Origin: Kouleothrix aurantiaca
GTDB taxonomy: Bacteria > Chloroflexota > Chloroflexia > Chloroflexales > Roseiflexaceae
Length of the DNA stretch: 6,696 nucleotides
Reading direction: 5' to 3'
Assembly (NCBI GenBank): GCA_001399705.1
Contig: LJCR01000122.1
Location: forward strand, 1-6,696
Shown: positions 1 to 6,696 of the stretch, one piece after another
Layout: each line of letters begins with the position of its first letter
How positions within the stretch are numbered: position 1 is the first letter of the stretch
Program-made: the position numbers and the translations under genes
Notes under the pieces: model-generated
The model's database searches: none
Seen by the model: the letters and a program-made list of their open reading frames with translations, nothing else
Told to the model about the DNA's origin: nothing

Positions 1-924
1 GTAGTACAGGCCGTTCGGCGCGTCGCTGCCGTCCTCGTTCATCGCGATCAGGTCGGCGGTCAGGCGCGGCCGCCCATCGCTTGTAAACGTCAGCGAGGTG
101 TAGTGGAAGATTTCGTAGTTGCCGGTGCCGACGATCCAGCGCCCGATCTGGGTTTGCTGCCAGTTGTTCGCGTCGGTGCAGCCCGCGTCGCAATAGGCGT
201 AGAACGCGCCATAGTGGTCGGGCTCGATGCCGTAGTTGCGATCCTGGTAGACAAAGCGCGGGCGGCCCTGCGGGTCGAGCGCGAAGTAGTGCTGCGGCGT
301 GTGCTGGTCGCTCACGTCGAAGATCGCGGTGCCATCGCTGGAGAACACGCGCTCGGTGGCCCAGTTCGCCGCGCTGGTGCAGCCAAAATCGCACGCCGCG
401 TAGATATAATCCTTGCCGCCGGGGTAGAGCTCCGAGTCGCCCACAATCAGCATGCGCGGCTGGCCGGCTGGCGTCAGCGCAAGCTGCGCTTCTTCGGCAC
501 GGTCGGTAAGCTGCACGAACCGCCAGTTCGCCGCGCTGCCGCAGCGATCGCCACCGGGCGAGCAGACGCCCTACACAGCCGCGGGGTGATCGGCCAGCGG
601 CACGAAATGCACAAAGGCCGCATGCATGCCGCCCGCCGCATCAACTTCCGAGCTGGCGCTGGCGGTTTTGATCGCTTTGCTCAGGTAGAGCGCGCCCTGG
701 CCCGATTCGGCTGGCGGAGGTGTGGTGCTGGTGCGGATGCTGCGCGCCATCGGCACGAAAATTTTCGATTTGCCGGCCTGCGTGCCGGAGGCGCTGCTCG
801 CAGCATTGGCGGTGCCCTGCGCCGGTATGAAGGCGCTGCTTGTTGCGGCAATCAGGAGCGCAAGGAGCAGAAGTGATATCTTCCCTGGGTGGCGTACACC
901 TGCGATGCGTAAAAACCGATGCAT
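1..924 (-). pseudogene. Secreted repeat protein gene, interrupted by an in-frame amber codon; 3' end outside window
   Basis: Starts at ATG 924-922, with an AAAGGA ribosome site at 935-940. The N-terminus is a signal peptide: basic MHRFLRIAGVRHPGK, then a hydrophobic run LLLLALLIAA, with a likely cleavage site near ANA-AS. A KSKIFVPMARS stretch and a low-complexity Thr/Pro region follow. After 117 codons a TAG occurs at 571-573, but the same frame stays open for 190 more codons to the window edge. That downstream part holds three diverged modules, each with two cysteines, an NW pair (Trp codons near 523, 361 and 160) and a later G(R/Q)PR motif. Modules two and three read Y-A-A-C and Y-A-Y-C before the first cysteine. 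Module one reads stop-G-V-C, so the TAG replaces a conserved Tyr (TAC in both others). I read this as a recent nonsense mutation or sequence error in an exported beta-rich protein of unknown function. Readthrough is possible but unsupported. No convincing promoter was found. Confidence 0.8.
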
Positions 925-1343
925 GGTTGCAGTGTCCTTTGTGCTGTGAGAATGTCCTGTTCAAAAAGAAGGTTGGCGTGCTGTATCGATGCACTGGCCA
1001 AAACCACACTTGGCGCAATTCCACATGAGGTTTTAGGGCAGTGAAAGGCCGCGTTATGCATCGCAATCCCCACCCCCTACTCCCCAATCCCTAACCCCTG
1101 CGCCGAAAGCACACCTAGCAAGACGCACACGGTTTTTGGCGGGTTACACGTTTTCGCAGAGTTTCCCTACGACATTTGACTGATTGTGGGGGTGGTGGCG
1201 CACAGCCGTGTACGCCGAGGGGTGCCGGCACGGCAGGGTTGTGTGCGCGGCGAAGCAGCTAATGCCAAACAATGTATGTGTTTCCCTGGAGTTGGTAAAA
1301 GCAAGGGAAGCAACGTGGGCGTGTTTCGCGCCGAGGAAGGCGC
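925..1343. other. Intergenic region between methyltransferase end and secreted-protein start
   Basis: No convincing gene on either strand; short frames here lack ribosome sites or recognisable protein character. It holds the upstream region of the secreted protein gene (AAAGGA at 935-940) and the C-rich heptamer tract at 1065-1099. It also has small dyads: a perfect 10-bp palindrome GTGCCGGCAC at 1222-1231, GCCGTG/CACGGC at 1205-1210 and 1229-1234, and GGCGC-TCA-GCGCC at 1339-1351 over the methyltransferase stop codon. None has a T tract, so a terminator for the toroid-methyltransferase operon cannot be assigned. Confidence 0.6.
1065..1099. repeat. Five tandem C-rich heptamers with G-quadruplex potential on the minus strand
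   Basis: The tract divides exactly into five 7-mers: AATCCCC, ACCCCCT, ACTCCCC, AATCCCT, AACCCCT (consensus roughly AAYCCCY). On the minus strand it gives five runs of 3-5 G separated by loops of 1-4 bases, which meets the usual G-quadruplex rule. It lies about 140-175 bp upstream of the secreted protein start, on its coding strand. It resembles the heptameric short tandem repeats (STRR, CCCCA(A/G)T type) described in filamentous cyanobacteria; a relationship is not implied. Confidence 0.75.
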
Positions 1344-2012
1344 TCAGCGCCGCTGGCTGCTGAGGTGGAAGAAGTGCGCGCCGCCGCCAATCGCTGACGG
1401 CGCAAAGCCGCGCTGCTCCAGCTGGCGACCGATCTCGGTCGGGTCGTAATAGACCTTTACAATCGAGAATGCGCGCCCGTCGCGCAGCGTGCGCTGCTGG
1501 TACATGCCCGCCGCATTCGGCCCGGAAACTTCGCTGCCGCCGGCTGGCTCGTCCACAACGAAAACCCGCCCGCCGGGCGCAACCGCGCGCTCGACGTTGT
1601 CGAGAAATGCGTCGAGCCGCTCGGGCGGCACATGCGACAGCCAGAAGGCGAAGAAGACCAGATCGTAGCGTTCTGTGGGCTCCCAGGCAAACAGGTCGGC
1701 CGTCTGGTAGGTGATGCGTGCGTCGCCCAGCTTGGCGCGGTTAAGCGCCAGCATCTCAGGCGCGCCGTCGAGCACGGTTAGCTCGCCCGCAATCCGCGCC
1801 AGCTCCTCGGTCCAGATGCCGGTGCCGCCCGCCAGCTCCAGCACGCGCCCCTGCGGCCCAAGCCCGCGCAGTGCCCGAACCGCTTCTTGCCACTCGCGCG
1901 CTTCGGCGCTCTCGGCTGCGCCGGGGTCGCCCACCGACTGTAGCGACTCGTCGTACTCGGCGGCGCGGGCGCGGTAGTAGTTGAGCTGCTCGTGCAACAG
2001 GTCGTCGTGCAT
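1344..2012 (-). CDS. Class I SAM-dependent methyltransferase (methyltransferase type 11/12/25-like)
   Basis: A 222-residue cytosolic protein with a Rossmann-type SAM fold. Motif I is VLELAGGTG at residues 57-65, the usual SAM-binding glycine loop. An acidic turn LTVLDGAPEML (Asp82) would bind the SAM ribose, TADLF near 106 is motif III-like, and YDLVFFAFWLSHVP at 116-129 is motif IV. The APGGRVFVVDEP strand at 145-156 is typical of UbiE/Methyltransf_11-25 relatives. The small-molecule or protein substrate cannot be told from sequence. The start ATG 2012-2010 has an AGAAGGA ribosome site at 2019-2025 made from the last codons (Glu-Gly) of the upstream toroid gene. The toroid stop is only 3 nt away, so the two are almost certainly co-transcribed and translationally coupled. 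Length is normal for a stand-alone enzyme of this class. Confidence 0.92.
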   Translation of the reverse strand: MHDDLLHEQLNYYRARAAEYDESLQSVGDPGAAESAEAREWQEAVRALRGLGPQGRVLELAGGTGIWTEELARIAGELTVLDGAPEMLALNRAKLGDARITYQTADLFAWEPTERYDLVFFAFWLSHVPPERLDAFLDNVERAVAPGGRVFVVDEPAGGSEVSGPNAAGMYQQRTLRDGRAFSIVKVYYDPTEIGRQLEQRGFAPSAIGGGAHFFHLSSQRR

Positions 2013-2015
2013 GGT

Positions 2016-3017
2016 TTATCCTTCTCGTTCGGCATACCAGCGCAGCACGCGCAGGGCACGCAGGCTGTTCCAGCGGCTTGGCTCGCCCACGCCCGCGTCG
2101 ATCTTGATCGGCATGGTGCCGGGGTAGCGCGTGCCGACCGCCCAGCGCCCGCTGCTGTCGCGCTTCGACACAAGAAGCTCAATCGCCTCGGCCATGCGTG
2201 GGTCGGGCGGGCCGCCGGCGCTGCGCAGGAACTCAAGGCCGCGCAGCACGTCGTAGTGCCACCATGTCGGGAAGGCGAACTCGGTCCAGTTCGCATCGCC
2301 TTTGCGGTCGTGCGTAATCGCTTCGCCGGTCGAGCGCCGGCGAAACAGGTGGCGTTCGAGCAGGTATTCCTGCCCGCGCAGGCGTGCTGCCGCCACTGCC
2401 GGCTGGTCGCCAGTGTGCTGCTCATACTGGAGCAGGGCTTCCAGCACGCAGATGGTGGTGTTGAACGACGAGCGCGTGGAGCCGTTCTCGGCTTCGCAGT
2501 TCCAACCGCCATCGGGCAGCTGCTCGGCGAGCAGGCGGTCGAGGATGCGCTGGATGTTCTGGCCGAAATACGCGCCAACCGTGCCCACCTGCCCGTTGAT
2601 GCACGGCTCGACCTCGCCGGCGAAGAACGGGTTGCCGCGCCAGTCCGCGCCGCGCCAGTTGCCGTCCCAATCCCAGCCCTGCCACGCCACATTGTCGCGC
2701 ACACGGCCCACCGCGCGCTGCGCCGCCGCGCTCGCGGGGTCGAGCCCGAAATCGCGCAGCAGCCACAAGACGTGCATGGTCGAGTCCCAGCCGCGGTTCC
2801 ACGCCCCGCCGCCCCACGAGCCATCGGCGGCTTGCTGGGCCAGCAGTTGCGCGCCCCAGCCTTCGGTGGCGATTTTCGCGCGCTCGGCGGCAACCTCTGC
2901 TGCACTGGCGTCGGTCAGGTCGCGCAGCACCTGCCAGCGGATCGCCGGGTCGGAATCGAGCAGCCACGCGATCAGCGCAGGGTCGGGCGCTGGAATTAGA
3001 CGTTGTGATGTATTCAT
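2016..3017 (-). CDS. Squalene-cyclase / prenyltransferase-like alpha-alpha toroid protein
   Basis: A 333-residue protein rich in Trp and helices with QW-type repeats. LLAQQAADGSWGG lies near residues 58-70, LLAEQLPDGGWNCEAENGS near 162-180, and a weaker SKRDSSGRWAVG near 284-295. Other family signatures are EVEPCINGQVGTVGAYFG, WWHYDVLRGLEF and the C-terminal SRWNSLRALRVLRWY. This matches a bacterial family usually annotated as prenyltransferase/squalene oxidase repeat protein. The catalytic DxDD of true squalene-hopene cyclases is not visible and the protein is about half their length, so cyclase activity is unlikely; the role is unknown. No signal peptide or membrane segment. ATG 3017 follows the stop of the BTAD relic by one base (TAG-C-ATG). 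A weak AAGG lies 13 nt upstream, so TTG at 3026 or 3029 is an alternative start. It leads a two-gene operon with the methyltransferase. Confidence 0.85.
   Translation of the reverse strand: MNTSQRLIPAPDPALIAWLLDSDPAIRWQVLRDLTDASAAEVAAERAKIATEGWGAQLLAQQAADGSWGGGAWNRGWDSTMHVLWLLRDFGLDPASAAAQRAVGRVRDNVAWQGWDWDGNWRGADWRGNPFFAGEVEPCINGQVGTVGAYFGQNIQRILDRLLAEQLPDGGWNCEAENGSTRSSFNTTICVLEALLQYEQHTGDQPAVAAARLRGQEYLLERHLFRRRSTGEAITHDRKGDANWTEFAFPTWWHYDVLRGLEFLRSAGGPPDPRMAEAIELLVSKRDSSGRWAVGTRYPGTMPIKIDAGVGEPSRWNSLRALRVLRWYAEREG
2019..2025 (-). promoter_or_regulatory. Ribosome binding site for the methyltransferase, inside the toroid gene's end
   Basis: AGAAGGA on the minus strand, 6 nt before ATG 2012. 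It lies within the last two sense codons (GAA GGA) of the toroid gene, whose TAA is at 2018-2016. Translation of one gene therefore probably feeds the other. Confidence 0.75.
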
Positions 3018-3018
3018 G

Positions 3019-3216
3019 CTATTCAACAAACCTTGTAACGCGCATGTTGTTTTGCGCAGCAGCAGCCGGTAAATCGGGCCACAGCAAACCGAGCAGGGTT
3101 TCGCGGCTGTGCGTGTGCTCCGAATCGATCAGAAGATACGCCAGCAGACCGATTGCCTTGCGGTTGGAGAGCGCGATCGGCCCCAACTGGCCATGCCCGA
3201 TCTGCAGGCGACCAAG
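3019..3216 (-). pseudogene. Relic of a BTAD/SARP-type (AfsR-like) transcriptional activator N-terminus
   Basis: The minus-strand frame from 3216 to TAG 3021-3019 encodes 65 residues. They match the N-terminal winged-helix domain of SARP/AfsR/LAL-type activators: LGRLQIG, then LSNRKAIGLLAYLLID, SRETLLGLLWPD, PAAAAQNNMRVT. Homologues continue past 'NLRVT' into further helices and a BTAD domain. Here the match stops at RVT, followed by RFVE and the stop. At the other end a TAA lies directly before LGR, where only a few residues of a normal N-terminus are missing, and no good start codon remains. This is a double-ended remnant of a regulator normally several hundred residues long. Its stop abuts the toroid ATG (one base between), and the -10 promoter at 3290-3295 lies upstream, so the frame is probably transcribed. 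A functional short leader ORF cannot be excluded but has no ribosome site. Confidence 0.65.
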
Positions 3217-3289
3217 TTAAGAAAACTTAATTCAGACAAGATTACCCAGACGAATGATGGATTCATGGCGCGTCGCTAGAGTACCGAAA

Positions 3290-3318
3290 AGTATAGCACA
3301 GCCACCCGAGTATTCAGG
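3290..3318 (-). promoter_or_regulatory. Putative extended -10 promoter for the BTAD relic and toroid operon
   Basis: On the minus strand TGC-TATACT (3298-3290) is a good extended -10 element (TGnTATAAT type). A weak -35, CCTGAA at 3318-3313, sits 17 nt upstream, inside the heptamer repeat. Predicted transcription starts near 3283 and would run through the relic into the toroid gene. The evidence is sequence match only. Confidence 0.45.
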
Positions 3319-3332
3319 ATTCAGGAGTCAGG
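3312..3332. repeat. Three tandem heptamers (ATTCAGG type)
   Basis: ATTCAGG ATTCAGG AGTCAGG, three consecutive 7-bp units of which two are identical. This second 7-bp-period repeat differs in sequence from the C-rich one at 1065-1099. Its left part supplies the putative -35 of the minus-strand promoter. Confidence 0.6.
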
Positions 3333-3522
3333 GGACAGCAGGCTTCTGGCCTTTTGAACCCTTCGCACATTGTTCCGAATTTCGACTGGGGCTAATGAAT
3401 TCTGCATAACAAACACAGGAACTATCGAAGGGGAGAAACGGACGAAGTAACTGCGGTTTTTTACGGGAGCCAGTATAGCCCGCTTCAGGCTGGGCATCCT
3501 GCAATTGCTGCCCAAACATTCC

Positions 3523-3552
3523 GGCGGGCGAGAAAGATACTTCTCGCCCGCC
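3523..3552 (-). terminator. Strong 12-bp hairpin, likely transcription terminator of the oxidoreductase operon
   Basis: GGCGGGCGAGAA at 3523-3534 pairs perfectly with TTCTCGCCCGCC at 3541-3552 around a 6-nt loop. An outer CATTCC/GGAATG pair (3517-3522, 3564-3569) could clamp it. On the minus strand it comes 27 nt after the stop of the orphan C-terminal frame, the normal place for a terminator. The following bases (GGAATGTTTGGG) have only a short T run, so efficiency is uncertain. The plus-strand exit is also moderately T-rich (3569-3580). Confidence 0.55.
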
Positions 3553-3578
3553 CAGCCGTGCCGGGAATGTTTTGCTGT

Positions 3579-3719
3579 TTAGCGTTGCGGCATTGGTAGA
3601 TCGAGAAAGTAGGCACCTCTGACACTGATCTTGGACTTACCTGTCAACGCGAAGCTAGTGACAACACTCAGCGTCACGCCATAGGTGTCGGTCGGCAAGC
3701 TTGCGCTGGTTTGCCGCCC
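3579..3719 (-). pseudogene. Orphan C-terminal fragment of an unidentified gene
   Basis: Directly after the oxidoreductase stop (TAA 3722-3720), the same frame continues open for 46 codons to TAA 3581-3579. The peptide looks like genuine protein: SASLPTDTYGVTLSVV, then TSFALTGKSKISVRGAYFL and a short tail ending PMPQR. The alternating hydrophobic pattern suggests a beta-sheet C-terminus. It has no start codon or ribosome site of its own and is followed by the hairpin at 3523-3552. I infer the 3' remnant of a lost gene with its terminator still attached. The family is not recognised. Chance coding-like sequence, or a C-terminal extension of the oxidoreductase lost by a new stop, are alternatives; LLM proteins normally end at the TAA seen here, which argues against the latter. 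Confidence 0.45.
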
Positions 3720-4649
3720 TTACAGCGCCCACACCTGTGGAATTAACTCCTCCGCCAGGCGCACGATTGGCGTGATGGTGTGTACATCCGGCAGGTTATA
3801 AATGACATGCTGAAAGCCCATCTCTGCAAGTTCGTGGCACACCTCGACAAGCTCAGTTATGCTCATTGCGCCTGTTCCAAGCTGGACCGAGCCAAGCACT
3901 GTGCGCTCGATCGACTCATAGCTCCGCCCTGCTGCCCGACAGTGTTCACGCAAACATGCTAATTTGTGTGGCAAACGTTCCGCACGCTGGTGGTAGGCAT
4001 CGATATACCACTGTGGGTAGCCGGGCAGCGGCGCCCCAAGCTGGAAGTTACACGCATCACCGTACTGCGCGACTAAACGCAGCGTCTGGCGCTCGCCCTC
4101 GCCACCAATCAGGATCGGTGGGTGTGGTTGGGCCAGCGGTTGCGGTACATTCAGCGGCTCATCAAGTTGGTAGAACTGTCCGTTGAAGGCAGATGTATTG
4201 CCGCGCCACATATGATGGGCAATAGCCAGAGTTTCTTCCAGCCGTCCCAATCGCTCGCGGGTGGGCGGATACGGAAGCCCGAGACCGCGGGCCTCGCGCT
4301 CGTACCATCCCGCCCCAATCCCGAAATAGGCCCGCCCGCCTGTCAAAACATCAAGGGTTGAAACCGTTTTGATCAACACGCCAGGATGGCGGTAGATCGC
4401 GCCGGTGACCATAAGACCGACTCTGATGCGCTGGGTGAGAGCGGCCATATATGCAATTGCAGTGTATCCTTCAAGCATCGGGGCGTCTGGCTCGCCCCAC
4501 ACTGAGCCGATTCCGAAAAAGTGATCCATCAGCCAGAGGCTTGCAAAGCCGCCTTGGTCGGCAGTGAGCGCAATTTCGCGCAGCGTGGACCCAATGATGG
4601 CTGGGCCACCCGGCCAGTCGAACGATGGGATTTGGAGACCGATCTTCAT
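3720..4649 (-). CDS. LLM-class (luciferase-like) F420-dependent oxidoreductase
   Basis: A 309-residue cytosolic TIM-barrel enzyme of the bacterial luciferase-like superfamily, of the type that uses F420 (or flavin) for hydride transfer. Signatures in order: MKIGLQIPSFDWPGG at the N-terminus, SLWLMDHFFGIG (37-48), PMLEGYTAIAYMAA (57-70), RIRVGLMVTG (74-83, the strand ending in the typical cofactor bulge), YRHPGVLIKTVSTLDVLTGGRAYFGIGAGWYE (86-117), FNGQFYQLDEP (155-165) and HPPILIGGEGERQTLRLVAQYGDACNF (176-202). Length is normal. The start is ATG 4649, with AGGAG at 4656-4660 spaced 6 nt; the longer open frame upstream is out-of-frame paralogue sequence. It lies 26 nt after the damaged paralogue, downstream of the MerR-type promoter at 5222-5252, so MerR control is likely. 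The substrate is unknown. F420 rather than FMN use is inferred from family resemblance. Confidence 0.92.
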   Translation of the reverse strand: MKIGLQIPSFDWPGGPAIIGSTLREIALTADQGGFASLWLMDHFFGIGSVWGEPDAPMLEGYTAIAYMAALTQRIRVGLMVTGAIYRHPGVLIKTVSTLDVLTGGRAYFGIGAGWYEREARGLGLPYPPTRERLGRLEETLAIAHHMWRGNTSAFNGQFYQLDEPLNVPQPLAQPHPPILIGGEGERQTLRLVAQYGDACNFQLGAPLPGYPQWYIDAYHQRAERLPHKLACLREHCRAAGRSYESIERTVLGSVQLGTGAMSITELVEVCHELAEMGFQHVIYNLPDVHTITPIVRLAEELIPQVWAL

Positions 4650-4655
4650 ACTCTG

Positions 4656-4660
4656 CTCCT
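4656..4660 (-). promoter_or_regulatory. Ribosome binding site fixing the intact oxidoreductase start
   Basis: AGGAG on the minus strand, 6 nt before ATG 4649. It decides in favour of the 309-residue protein over a 436-codon reading that would begin near 5030 inside the paralogue in the wrong frame. Confidence 0.8.
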
Positions 4661-4675
4661 GGTACATGTGTGGCA

Positions 4676-5181
4676 CTATAAAGCAGCCACTGCGGGAACA
4701 ATCTCGCGCCCAAGCTGCTCGATCGGTGCGAGCGTGTGTGCATTGGGCAGGTTGATAATCAGCTGCTGAAACCCTAGTGCGGCGAGCGCACCGCATAAGT
4801 CGATCACTGCGGCCGTGCTCGCGCCCTGCGGCCCGAGATCTAGGTAGGTCACCACAGTCTTCGTGATTGTGGCTTCGTCCCGCCCCAGCGCCGCACAGTG
4901 TTCCCGAAGAATGTCGAGTTTGCGTTCCAGCACCTCTAAACTGTAACGCGCCGCGTGACCCCAGCCAGGTAGGCGATTGTGCTATAGCCCTCGAGCATCG
5001 GCTCTTCCGCCGGGCCATGGACGACGCCAAACTGCTCGCCGAGCTGGAACAGGTGATCCATCACCCAGAGGTTGGCCAGGCCAGCAGCCTCTGCTGTTGT
5101 GGCGATCGCGGCCAATGTCGGTCCGATCTGCACGGCTCCGCCTGCCCAGTCGTATTTTCCAATGTGCAGCCCTATCTGCAT
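4676..5181 (-). pseudogene. LLM-class oxidoreductase paralogue with a large internal deletion and frameshift
   Basis: Starts well: ATG 5181 with AAAGGA at 5187-5192. It encodes MQIGLHIGKYDWAGG, NLWVMDHLFQLGEQFG and EEPMLEGYSTIAYLAG, aligning with residues 1-77 of the intact neighbour. After VTRRVTV (81 codons) a TAG stops the frame at 4936-4938. A different frame then gives LERKLDILREHCAALGRDE and GFQQLIINLPNAHTLAPIE, ending at TAG 4676-4678, matching the neighbour from about residue 224 to its end. Roughly 130-145 residues are missing, including the GGRAYFGIGAGW and ILIGGEGERQ regions needed for cofactor binding, so no active barrel can form. The join lies near 4936-4975. Sequence divergence from the neighbour shows an old duplication; the deletion is later or an assembly fault. 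It is the first gene behind the MerR-type promoter. Confidence 0.88.
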
Positions 5182-5186
5182 GATTT

Positions 5187-5192
5187 TCCTTT
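5187..5192 (-). promoter_or_regulatory. Ribosome binding site of the broken oxidoreductase
   Basis: AAAGGA on the minus strand, 5 nt before ATG 5181. Its preservation shows that the 5' end of the gene is intact although the body is deleted. Confidence 0.7.
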
Positions 5193-5221
5193 CGTCGCTA
5201 TGGGAACAGCCAGTTGCCATG

Positions 5222-5252
5222 AGGCTACACCCTCGAGTACACTCGAGGTCAA
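5222..5252 (-). promoter_or_regulatory. MerR-type promoter and operator for the oxidoreductase operon
   Basis: On the minus strand: -35 TTGACC (5252-5247), a 19-bp spacer (5246-5228), -10 TAGCCT (5227-5222). The 18-bp dyad CCTCGAGT-ac-ACTCGAGG at 5231-5248 overlaps the -35 and fills most of the spacer. A long 19-bp spacer with a central dyad is the hallmark of MerR-activated promoters, where the regulator untwists DNA to realign -35 and -10. The -10 is poor (3 of 6), which suits dependence on activation. Predicted leader is about 34 nt. Confidence 0.82.
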
Positions 5253-5286
5253 GTGCTTCTTGACCTCGAGTGTACTCGAGGGTGTA
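5226..5286. repeat. Perfect 28-bp inverted repeat with 5-nt loop (divergent control region)
   Basis: Positions 5226-5253 are the exact reverse complement of 5259-5286, with TGCTT between. Each arm contains one complete CCTCGAGT/ACTCGAGG operator and one TTGACC -35, so the repeat is a duplicated, mirror-image promoter rather than a terminator or transposon end. Operator centres are 33 bp apart, about three helical turns, putting two bound dimers on nearly the same face. The DNA could also extrude as a cruciform. Confidence 0.95.
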
Positions 5287-5290
5287 CGAT
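5260..5290 (+). promoter_or_regulatory. MerR-type promoter and operator for the merR gene (autoregulation)
   Basis: -35 TTGACC (5260-5265), 19-bp spacer (5266-5284), -10 TACGAT (5285-5290, 4 of 6). The operator CCTCGAGT-gt-ACTCGAGG lies at 5264-5281. Arrangement is identical to the minus-strand promoter. The GAGTGTACTC core recalls known AdhR/YyaN-type MerR sites, and the outer CCTC-GAGG recalls SoxR-type sites. Predicted leader is about 63 nt. Confidence 0.83.
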
Positions 5291-5359
5291 ACGGTCAGCG
5301 AGGTTTGGGTGTACCAGATCACGGCCCGTATTAGCGATGTGACAGAAGAGGGAGGAGTG

Positions 5360-5776
5360 ATGAAAATCCAGGATGTTGCTGCGCGCACAAAACTGAGTAT
5401 TCACACGCTGCGCTACTACGAGGGGCTGGGCTTGATCGTGCCAGTCGCCCGTGCGGGGAACGGCCATCGCATTTATAGTGAGTACGATGTTGAGCGGATT
5501 GTGTTTGTAAGCCGACTGCGTGCGATGGGGATGCCGATCACCACGATCCAGCGCTACATGCAGCTCGCGCAGCAGGGCGATGCGACAGTAACCGAGCGGC
5601 TACAGATCTTGGAGCGGCACGAGGTAGTGGTGATGCAGCATTTGCAGGAGTTCCAGAACCATCTCGCCTTGATACGGCGCAAGATCGCGCACTATCGCGA
5701 GCTGTTTCACGCCAATCTCATGGCGGAGGACGACGTCGAGGAACCGACCGCGCCGATCGGCACCGTGGAGACGTAA
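5360..5776 (+). CDS. MerR-family transcriptional regulator (AdhR/YyaN-like, cysteine-free)
   Basis: A 138-residue DNA-binding activator/repressor. The N-terminal MerR helix-turn-helix is MKIQDVAARTKLSIHTLRYYEGLGLI (1-26), followed by the wing RAGNGHRIYSEYDVERI (31-47), second helix pair SRLRAMGMPITTIQRYMQLAQQGD (51-74) and a long coiled-coil dimerisation helix (about 75-117). The short acidic tail has no effector domain. There is no cysteine anywhere, so the 2Fe-2S sensing of SoxR and thiol-based metal binding are excluded; the inducer is unknown, perhaps a small organic or aldehyde-like compound as for AdhR relatives. Start ATG 5360 has GGAGG at 5351-5355; GTG 5357 is a close alternative. 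The frame remains open back to 5270 but that lies within the promoter. It is divergent from the oxidoreductase operon with a shared mirror-image operator, so control of both units is likely. Confidence 0.93.
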   Translation: MKIQDVAARTKLSIHTLRYYEGLGLIVPVARAGNGHRIYSEYDVERIVFVSRLRAMGMPITTIQRYMQLAQQGDATVTERLQILERHEVVVMQHLQEFQNHLALIRRKIAHYRELFHANLMAEDDVEEPTAPIGTVET

Positions 5777-5822
5777 ATCGGGGCGGCAACTGCCATCCCA
5801 CGCGACATGTCCAATTCAATGC

Positions 5823-5866
5823 AGCGCCTGTAAGCCCACAGCACCAGCGGGCAGCAGGCAGGCGCT
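5823..5866. repeat. Inverted repeat between convergent genes, possible bidirectional terminator
   Basis: AGCGCCTG at 5823-5830 pairs with CAGGCGCT at 5859-5866, and GCCC (5834-5837) with GGGC (5849-5852) inside, giving a long imperfect hairpin. It lies between the ends of merR (plus) and the DUF1905 gene (minus), overlapping the latter's stop. No T tract on either side, so the terminator role is tentative. Confidence 0.35.
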
Positions 5867-6152
5867 ACAGCTGGATTTCGAGCTGCACGGTCACGATGTC
5901 GCCTTCGTCCAGGCGCTCGGCCGTGCGCACGCTGGCCCGGATCGGCACAATATAGCGCTCGTCTTTAGGAAACAGCGCGGTGGCCCACACGGTTTTGCCA
6001 ATCCGCACGCGCGCCGGGATCATGCCCCAGCCATAAGTGACCATCGGCAAAATTGCCTTCAGCTCGCCGTACTGCTCTGGCGGGATCGTCACAAAATACC
6101 ACGGCGATGGGCCTTTCCAGAACCAGATCGGCCCGCTGAATTCAAAATCCAT
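5865..6152 (-). CDS. DUF1905 domain protein
   Basis: A 95-residue soluble protein made almost entirely of the DUF1905 domain: FSGPIWFWKGPSPWYFVTIPPE (5-26), YGWGMIPARVRIGKTVWATALFPK (40-63), YIVPIRASVRTAERLDEGDIVTVQLEI (67-93). The family forms a small beta-barrel-like domain; its biochemical role is not established. The start ATG 6152 is chosen because DUF1905 proteins begin close to this motif and GAGGG lies just upstream at 6157-6161. A longer frame back to 6221 overlaps the GNAT gene and adds unrelated residues. The GNAT stop TGA (6162-6160) overlaps the ribosome site, so the two are translationally coupled. Full length for a stand-alone member. Confidence 0.88.
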   Translation of the reverse strand: MDFEFSGPIWFWKGPSPWYFVTIPPEQYGELKAILPMVTYGWGMIPARVRIGKTVWATALFPKDERYIVPIRASVRTAERLDEGDIVTVQLEIQL

Positions 6153-6159
6153 CACACCC

Positions 6160-6657
6160 TCAGCTATTGTCGGCGATGCTTGACGGGGCGGCCAGATCCA
6201 GTATATACACCAGTTCGCCATGCTGCTGCGCGCCGCCTGGCCGAAAGCCGACGCTGGCGTACAGGCGCTGGCCGGGCGTATTGTCCGGGTTCACCGTAAG
6301 ATGGATGTGCTGGCAGTGCGTATAATCGGCGCGCACCAGCTCCACAGCGGCACGCAGCGCCGCCCGCCCGTAGCCCTGCCCCTGCCAGCGCTGGTCGATG
6401 AAGAAGTGAAAGAGCCAGTAATCCGTAGGATTATCGGGCGCGTGGGCCAGCGCCAGCATGCCAATGAATTGCTCCTTGGCGGCGATGGCGTAGGGCTGCC
6501 AGTGCATGCCGCCCGCGCCAACGTAGGCTTTTGCCAGCACAATCGCCGCGATCGGCTGGCAGTCGGCAACAAAGCGTTGCTGCGCGGGGTGCACGCCCAG
6601 CGCGAGCGTGGCCCGCCAGTTGGCCGCCGTGATTTCCTGTAGGGTAATGTCAGCCAT
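6160..6657 (-). CDS. GNAT-family N-acetyltransferase
   Basis: A 165-residue cytosolic acetyl-CoA-dependent acyltransferase. The acetyl-CoA pyrophosphate loop is QRWQGQGYGRAALRAAVELV at 89-108 (Q-x-x-G-x-G form). Motif B is NTPGQRLYASVGFRPGG at 125-141, and the preceding beta-strands YAIAAKEQFIGMLAL and DYWLFHFFID match the fold. The opening ITLQEITAANWRATLAL with HPAQQRFVA recalls spermidine/diamine-acetyltransferase-like GNATs, but the acceptor cannot be assigned. Start ATG 6657 has GGAGAAGGA at 6662-6670. The final codons lead straight into the DUF1905 gene (7 nt between stop and start). Length is normal and the reading frame intact. Confidence 0.92.
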   Translation of the reverse strand: MADITLQEITAANWRATLALGVHPAQQRFVADCQPIAAIVLAKAYVGAGGMHWQPYAIAAKEQFIGMLALAHAPDNPTDYWLFHFFIDQRWQGQGYGRAALRAAVELVRADYTHCQHIHLTVNPDNTPGQRLYASVGFRPGGAQQHGELVYILDLAAPSSIADNS

Positions 6658-6696
6658 TCAATCCTTCTCCACGCGCGCTGCCCGCACGGCCATGCC
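6658..6696 (-). CDS. Possible C-terminal tail of an upstream gene (partial)
   Basis: Thirteen minus-strand codons run from the window edge to TGA 6660-6658, ending MAVRAARVEKD. The stop directly abuts the GNAT ATG (TGA-ATG), and the GNAT ribosome site overlaps its last codons, typical of operon packing. The piece is too short to identify and may be chance. Confidence 0.3.
   Translation of the reverse strand, partial: GMAVRAARVEKD

Follow-up and report, generated by a model that had tools for sequence, protein, structure and literature searches.

Structure of the locus

We analysed a stretch of 6,696 nt from Kouleothrix aurantiaca (assembly GCA_001399705.1, contig LJCR01000122.1, positions 1 to 6,696, forward strand), hereafter called the window, in which a perfect inverted repeat with a total length of 61 bp lies between two outward-facing genes, one for a MerR-family regulator and the other for a luciferase-like (LLM, F420-type) oxidoreductase (Table 1). 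Read outwards, each arm has the form CTTGACC-TCGAGTGTACTCGAGGGTG-TA, in which a −35 box is followed, after a spacer of 19 bp, by the first bases of a −10 box. An 18-bp dyad of the form CCTCGAGT-N2-ACTCGAGG takes in the last bases of the −35 box and occupies most of the spacer. The MerR promoter rule, as worded in excerpts of PMC9909328 and PMC1526738, places a palindrome in a 19-bp spacer. Both arms follow the MerR-type layout, in which a long palindrome lies within a spacer of 19-20 bp, since the spacer is 19 bp and the dyad matches at 8/8 positions in each. The −35 boxes are separated by 7 bp (5253-5259) and the dyad centres by 33 bp, and the transcription starts predicted 7 nt past each −10 box fall near 5297 on the plus strand and 5215 on the minus strand, about 82 bp apart. 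The first-pass annotation had reported the palindrome with its exact arms and the distances of 7 and 33 bp, and all of its coordinates hold; it had also proposed a full MerR promoter in each arm, and both do appear complete.

Table 1. Features of the palindrome and of the genes around it.
Feature	Position	Strand	Basis
Inverted repeat (perfect), left arm	5226-5253		28/28 complementary to 5259-5286
5-nt centre TGCTT separating the arms	5254-5258		sequence
Inverted repeat (perfect), right arm	5259-5286		28/28 complementary to 5226-5253
Left MerR-type promoter (predicted): TTGACC (5252-5247), 19-bp spacer, TAGCCT (5227-5222)	5222-5252	-	sequence; layout matched in 43 other two-armed loci
Right MerR-type promoter (predicted): TTGACC (5260-5265), 19-bp spacer, TACGAT (5285-5290)	5260-5290	+	sequence; layout matched in 43 other two-armed loci
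Left 18-bp operator dyad	5231-5248		exact match; dyad 8/8
Right 18-bp operator dyad	5264-5281		exact match; dyad 8/8
MerR-family regulator, 138 amino acids, no Cys	5360-5776	+	Pfam MerR_1, 1e-17
N-terminal remnant of the divergent LLM oxidoreductase gene	4936-5181	-	aligns with paralogue residues 1-77
C-terminal remnant of the same LLM gene	4676-4963	-	aligns with paralogue residues from about 214 to 309 (second alignment 224-309)
Intact LLM-class oxidoreductase, TIGR03560, 309 amino acids	3720-4649	-	TIGR03560, 263.6 bits, cut-off 231.4

The regulator scores above the Pfam cut-offs for MerR_1 (64.4 bits, cut-off 21.6), MerR (46.8 bits, cut-off 28.2) and MerR-DNA-bind (29.7 bits, cut-off 25.4), and belongs to the MerR family by its winged-helix DNA-binding domain. 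Two LLM genes lie on the opposite side, the first of which is broken in this assembly (4676-5181, minus strand): its middle part, corresponding to about residues 78-213 of the paralogue, is missing, and the two remnants are out of frame. The second LLM gene is intact and starts 26 nt beyond its broken paralogue on the same strand, so that transcription from the left promoter would still extend into a complete enzyme gene. The intact gene is the likely output of this promoter. A public protein (P0001) has an identical 138-residue MerR body with a slightly different upstream reading, and another strain carrying the locus seems to exist in the databases.

The assembly is fragmented (7.8 Mb in 3843 contigs, 83.5% complete, 7.5% contamination), and a misjoin of short reads could in such a genome create a perfect palindrome. 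However, the repeat is short, the two −10 regions and the outer flanks differ, and near-perfect arms (26/28) are present in the named isolate Actinomadura sp. NBRC 104412, and we consider an assembly artefact very unlikely. Folded as single-stranded DNA, positions 5215-5297 form a full hairpin of −38 kcal/mol (z −12.35), and none of 200 shuffles reached so low a value (mean −10.7 kcal/mol, standard deviation 2.21). With its perfect 28-bp stem, the palindrome might thus be a DNA or RNA hairpin, such as a terminator, a cruciform or a recombination site, rather than a pair of promoters. This is hardly credible given the internal dyads and the exact 19-bp spacers in both arms, the predicted start of both transcripts outside the repeat, and the promoter parts that other loci with two mirror-image arms (two-armed loci, described below) retain despite imperfect complementarity between their arms. 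A terminator or hairpin role was also rejected because no T-run follows the stem and the palindrome was absent from the list produced by the terminator scan.

A third copy of the operator in the same genome

A search of the 7.8-Mb assembly for the 27-bp pattern TTGACNTCGAGTNNACTCGAGGNTGTA with up to three mismatches gave three hits, all of them exact, whereas the backwards control pattern gave no hit in this genome, which excludes chance as the explanation for the arms. Two of the three hits are the arms themselves, and the third is a lone copy at positions 1389-1415 of contig C1002 (locus L003), located before an aldo/keto reductase gene and followed at the 19-bp spacing by a −10 box, TAGAAT. 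The aldo/keto reductase shares 50% identity, over 335 aligned columns, with the divergent target at locus L096, a two-armed locus in Anaerolineae whose MerR protein is the sister of the window MerR in the inferred phylogeny (support 96/97, with a long branch for the window protein). This gene is a probable second target in trans, and the three motif copies represent the predicted regulon of the window regulator in the 83.5% complete assembly. Neither the third site, which has a single arm, nor the broken adjacent target gene had been noted in the first-pass annotation. The genome also encodes a different MerR protein, 26% identical to the regulator, on a contig with an LLM gene (C3113:684-2409), the product of which is 58% identical to that of the intact LLM gene in the window.

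Two-armed loci in other bacteria

To place the palindrome in context, contigs in GTDB were scanned for two back-to-back −35 boxes, at least one of them with a dyad, at gaps of 0-30, and 80 of the 100 reported stretches were examined. With a dyad of at least 5/8 on each side as the criterion, 43 of the 80 loci were two-armed. A MerR gene was located on exactly one side in 39 of these 43 loci, on neither side in four and on both sides in none, while nine of the 37 one-armed loci had a MerR gene on one side. The MerR-flanked two-armed loci belong to the Bacillota, Actinomycetota, Chloroflexota and Verrucomicrobiota. The first-pass annotation had regarded a duplicated operator as an exception among MerR loci, and this distribution over four phyla does not support such a view. 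The window itself fits the pattern, with a dyad in both arms, MerR on one side and an oxidoreductase on the other.

The open reading frames opposite MerR were chosen by length, and some of the picks are probably not genes. Among the 47 that were examined (39 opposite MerR and eight from the four two-armed loci without MerR), Pfam identified 35 oxidoreductases in all, including 17 short-chain dehydrogenases, 13 aldo/keto reductases, three iron-containing alcohol dehydrogenases and two luciferase-like proteins. Two loci from Actinomadura (L041 and L075) have the same pairing as the window, with MerR facing a TIGR03560 gene, and L075 is the locus from Actinomadura sp. NBRC 104412 mentioned above. 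When the 28-bp arms were compared across the window and the 43 scanned loci, the window ranked first of the 44 with 28/28, followed by L075 with 26/28, and the others had 18-25 matches. Across the Paenibacillus loci the arms hardly vary and the intervening DNA does, which fits selection to keep both arms, and the sequence comparisons suggest that selection, not accident, shaped the arrangement. The first-pass annotation had also expected the difference between the two −10 boxes to favour merR. As a general trait this is not borne out, as the −10 box on the MerR side was the better of the two in 13 of the 39 other two-armed loci with MerR and the worse in 12, with no difference in 14. In two-armed actinobacterial loci such as L060, L062, L077, L078 and L095, start codons are placed about 7 nt past the −10 box, 38 nt from the start of TTGAC, and their transcripts look leaderless.

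A looser scan at the level of the Chloroflexota gave a match in four of 400 genomes, namely in the genome of K. aurantiaca, in two genomes with two-armed loci (G030 and G039) and in one with a one-armed locus (G409). No arms were identified at gaps of 31-60 in any of 12 genomes; one locus with a wider gap (L012) was instead located through its MerR gene. Open-licence literature, represented mostly by titles and the beginnings of abstracts, yielded no description of paired mirror-image MerR operators.

The second operator and the facing gene

The relatives of the window MerR comprised all 17 of its matches below 1e-19 in 100 related genomes, with the window excluded (L009-L021 and L177-L180; 37-49% identity). 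A divergent oxidoreductase was taken to be absent if about 1.5 kb of upstream DNA had no tblastn match at 1e-5 to 50 query proteins. A second mirror-image operator was present in all four relatives with a divergent oxidoreductase (L012, L014, L019 and L020) and in none of the 13 relatives without one from the searched families. The forward arm of L019 was judged by eye, as its dyad is under the threshold of the script, and the weak forward dyads in L009, L017 (5/8, unlike the operator) and L178, as well as a dissimilar reverse dyad in L180, were not scored as arms; L180 has no clear TTG-led arm whatsoever. In five of the relatives (L009, L010, L013, L178 and L179) an oxidoreductase gene is instead located behind merR on the same strand. 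The contrast holds inside a single genus (g11), to which L014, L019 and L020 belong together with L016-L018. Among the 17 relatives read, the second arm is thus seen only with a facing oxidoreductase, and the duplicated operator is again no exception among loci of this type. The simplest rule suggested by the sequences is one operator-promoter per transcription unit.

It had been anticipated in the first-pass annotation that orthologous loci with a single arm would speak against the paired promoters. In form this is what 13 of the 17 relatives have, but these do not refute the pairing because none of the 13 has a divergent oxidoreductase of the searched families and none is a close orthologue.

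The relatives also bear on the possibility that only the promoter on the merR side works and that the left arm arose incidentally, for instance when a template switch reverse-copied the operator, and is now drifting together with the broken gene. The broken LLM gene, the weaker left −10 box and the 28/28 identity of the arms, the highest of the 44 loci and as recent copying would give, agree with such an origin. On the other hand, an intact LLM gene follows the broken one on the same strand, arms that match at 18-26 of 28 positions in the other loci indicate that shared function alone brings arms close, and second arms and divergent oxidoreductases are repeatedly found together in the relatives. 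We consider a non-functional left arm improbable.

Spacing between the arms

The gap g was measured from the GTCAAG box to the CTTGAC box, so that the distance between dyad centres is g + 28. In the 43 two-armed loci, g was 2 in two loci (L062 and L099), 8 in one (L075), 12-14 in eight, 16-19 in five, 23-25 in 24 and 27-29 in three. The distances between dyad centres outside the window therefore cluster near 30, 41 and 52 bp, about one helical turn apart. Phasing was tested after the clusters had been seen, on manually entered gap values deduplicated by hand to about one per genus and cluster. In this post hoc test, 10 of the 23 deduplicated MerR-flanked values fell at 23-25 (binomial p 2.5e-5 against 3/31) and the 23 values showed a 10.5-bp period (R 0.52, p 0.0018), which was weaker when the non-MerR loci were kept (27 values, p 0.011). 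The 37 one-armed loci showed neither a 10.5-bp period (R 0.21, p 0.20) nor a cluster at 23-25 (4/37).

Among 200 genomes of Streptosporangiales, 15 had a match and 14 of these were two-armed with one MerR, at g values of 2, 8, 11, 12, 12, 12, 13, 13, 13, 14, 23, 23, 24 and 25; by sequence, ten of the 14 were already in the GTDB scan and four were new (g = 11, 13, 13 and 23). The MerR phylogeny was inferred from 45 proteins, leaving out identical proteins and L048, a MerR fragment of less than 80 amino acids, and the tree program gave a long-branch warning that included the branch of the window MerR. In a weakly supported, mostly Streptosporangiaceae group of 11 rows, g switches between about 2, 12 and 24 with none between, and in a Paenibacillus group of 16 rows it switches between 13-14 and 23-25. 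These patterns, noticed after the fact, suggest that the arm spacing changes in steps of whole turns, and the preferred spacings of paired operators may be a new result. Counting against such steps are five loci with g at 16-19, three loci with g at 27-29, L075 at 8 and the window at 5.

With 33 bp between the dyad centres, the window falls outside the 30, 41 and 52-bp clusters. The proposal in the first-pass annotation that two regulator dimers would sit on about the same face of the DNA is fair for 33 bp taken alone, a distance that departs from three 10.5-bp turns by 51 degrees, but the other loci prefer about 30, 41 and 52 bp. If the turn-by-turn spacing holds, two promoters bent by MerR would seem to sense each other; no test of this was found in open-licence literature, again as titles and partial abstracts.

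A broader hypothesis is that a self-activating MerR facing its target forms a distinct two-operator switch, with whole-turn spacing (about 30, 41 or 52 bp) and dimers paired across the divide, of which the window would be a collapsed, fully symmetric 33-bp version whose promoters cannot fire together and which chooses a direction. We regard this as unlikely at present.

Comparison with known MerR systems

The mer operon of Gram-negative bacteria resembles the window in having a MerR-family regulator, a divergent target and a palindrome in a 19-bp spacer. However, one operator is common to both divergent promoters in mer, whereas the window contains two complete dyads, one per promoter, and the promoter of the window merR is itself of the activatable long-spacer type. 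The classical arrangement with a single shared operator is thus absent from the window. Closer likenesses are found among the other two-armed loci (L075, L096, L062, L078, L070 and others), which also have mirror-image operators, MerR on one side and mostly an oxidoreductase on the opposite side. They differ from the window in that their arms match at 18-26 rather than 28 of 28 positions and in that the gap is mostly 2, 11-14 or 23-25 rather than 5.

The best NCBIfam model for the regulator is NmlR, of the NmlR/AdhR proteins that respond to formaldehyde and carbonyl stress. According to excerpts of PMC4776306, nmlR is divergent to adhC-estD in Neisseria and Haemophilus, and a cysteine is absolutely conserved in the NmlR clade (Cys54 in H. 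influenzae and Cys52 in B. subtilis). This cysteine is present in 34 of the 39 MerR proteins of the other two-armed loci (with a gap in the fragment L048), but the regulator in the window has Arg52 in this column and no cysteine at all, and thus cannot sense via the conserved cysteine of the NmlR clade. Membership in NmlR was rejected, as the score of 88.5 bits is below the NCBIfam cut-off of 175 and the cysteine is lacking. SoxR was rejected as well (34.7 bits, cut-off 116.9), as there is no cysteine for a [2Fe-2S] cluster. The SoxR box is also an 18-bp dyad, with letters similar to those of the dyad in the window.

Proposed regulation of the divergent genes

Taken together, we interpret the palindrome as two mirror-image copies of one MerR-type operator-promoter, through which the adjacent MerR is predicted to switch the regulator gene and the outward oxidoreductase genes together (probability about 0.8). 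This interpretation builds on the presence of two exactly matching arms with 19-bp spacers, on the third copy in the genome, before an aldo/keto reductase gene, and on the association of a second operator with a divergent oxidoreductase among the relatives that were read. In the known MerR mechanism, as outlined in excerpts of PMC9909328, an over-long promoter is held off without the signal, and upon the signal, kinking and untwisting of the spacer by the bound dimer bring both boxes within reach of sigma. By analogy with these activators, the MerR protein of the window would bind both dyads and act through untwisting of the long spacers. A chemical signal would then raise the expression of merR and of the outward-facing oxidoreductase genes in parallel, and the intact second LLM gene would be transcribed through the broken first one. 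That merR has a promoter of the activatable type predicts positive autoregulation, as would be expected from activation by untwisting. The signal might be a reactive carbonyl or a quinone, a guess from the enzymes under control.

Several observations weigh against this interpretation. In this assembly the left promoter adjoins a broken gene, and the left −10 box, TAGCCT, matches TATAAT at only 3/6 positions. The 17 relatives are mutually related, so that four of four against none of 13 does not represent 17 independent tests, and the divergent match in L012 spans just 34 residues. Furthermore, the comparison of upstream DNA covers relatives of 37-49% identity and no true orthologues, although three proteins (P0002-P0004) reach 75-77%.

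A different outcome would be a competitive toggle, in which the 7 bp between the −35 boxes make the promoters mutually exclusive and the regulator and the enzyme are made alternately. Given the footprint size of RNA polymerase, two polymerases would probably clash at this distance and overlap across the 82 bp between the predicted starts, which would admit one polymerase at a time, and compact loci with gaps of 2 and 8 exist elsewhere. The commonest gap of 23-25 (24 of 43 loci; 11 of 27 at one value per genus and cluster) has room for two polymerases, however, so that such a clash is not expected in this class and exclusion is not conserved in the layout. A toggle is therefore possible but doubtful, and joint switching of the two sides from one operator-promoter each is the interpretation that we prefer. 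The perfect symmetry adds no known function and may reflect either an extreme case of the usual convergence towards one operator, or recent copying by a template switch. The window contains a well-formed, predicted self-activating MerR switch, a familiar kind of regulation in an unusually perfect form. The usual account is that one MerR operator is common to the regulator and its target, and these loci, from at least four phyla, follow a second plan in which each gene has an activatable promoter of its own. The paired operators with preferred spacings are the part that is most worth following.

Other genes in the window

On the far side of merR, a DUF1905 gene and a GNAT acetyltransferase gene are located on the minus strand (5865-6657), and no link to the palindrome was seen. 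Elsewhere in the window, also on the minus strand, an open reading frame of 337 amino acids (2016-3029) without a Pfam match at 0.001 adjoins a methyltransferase gene (1344-2012).
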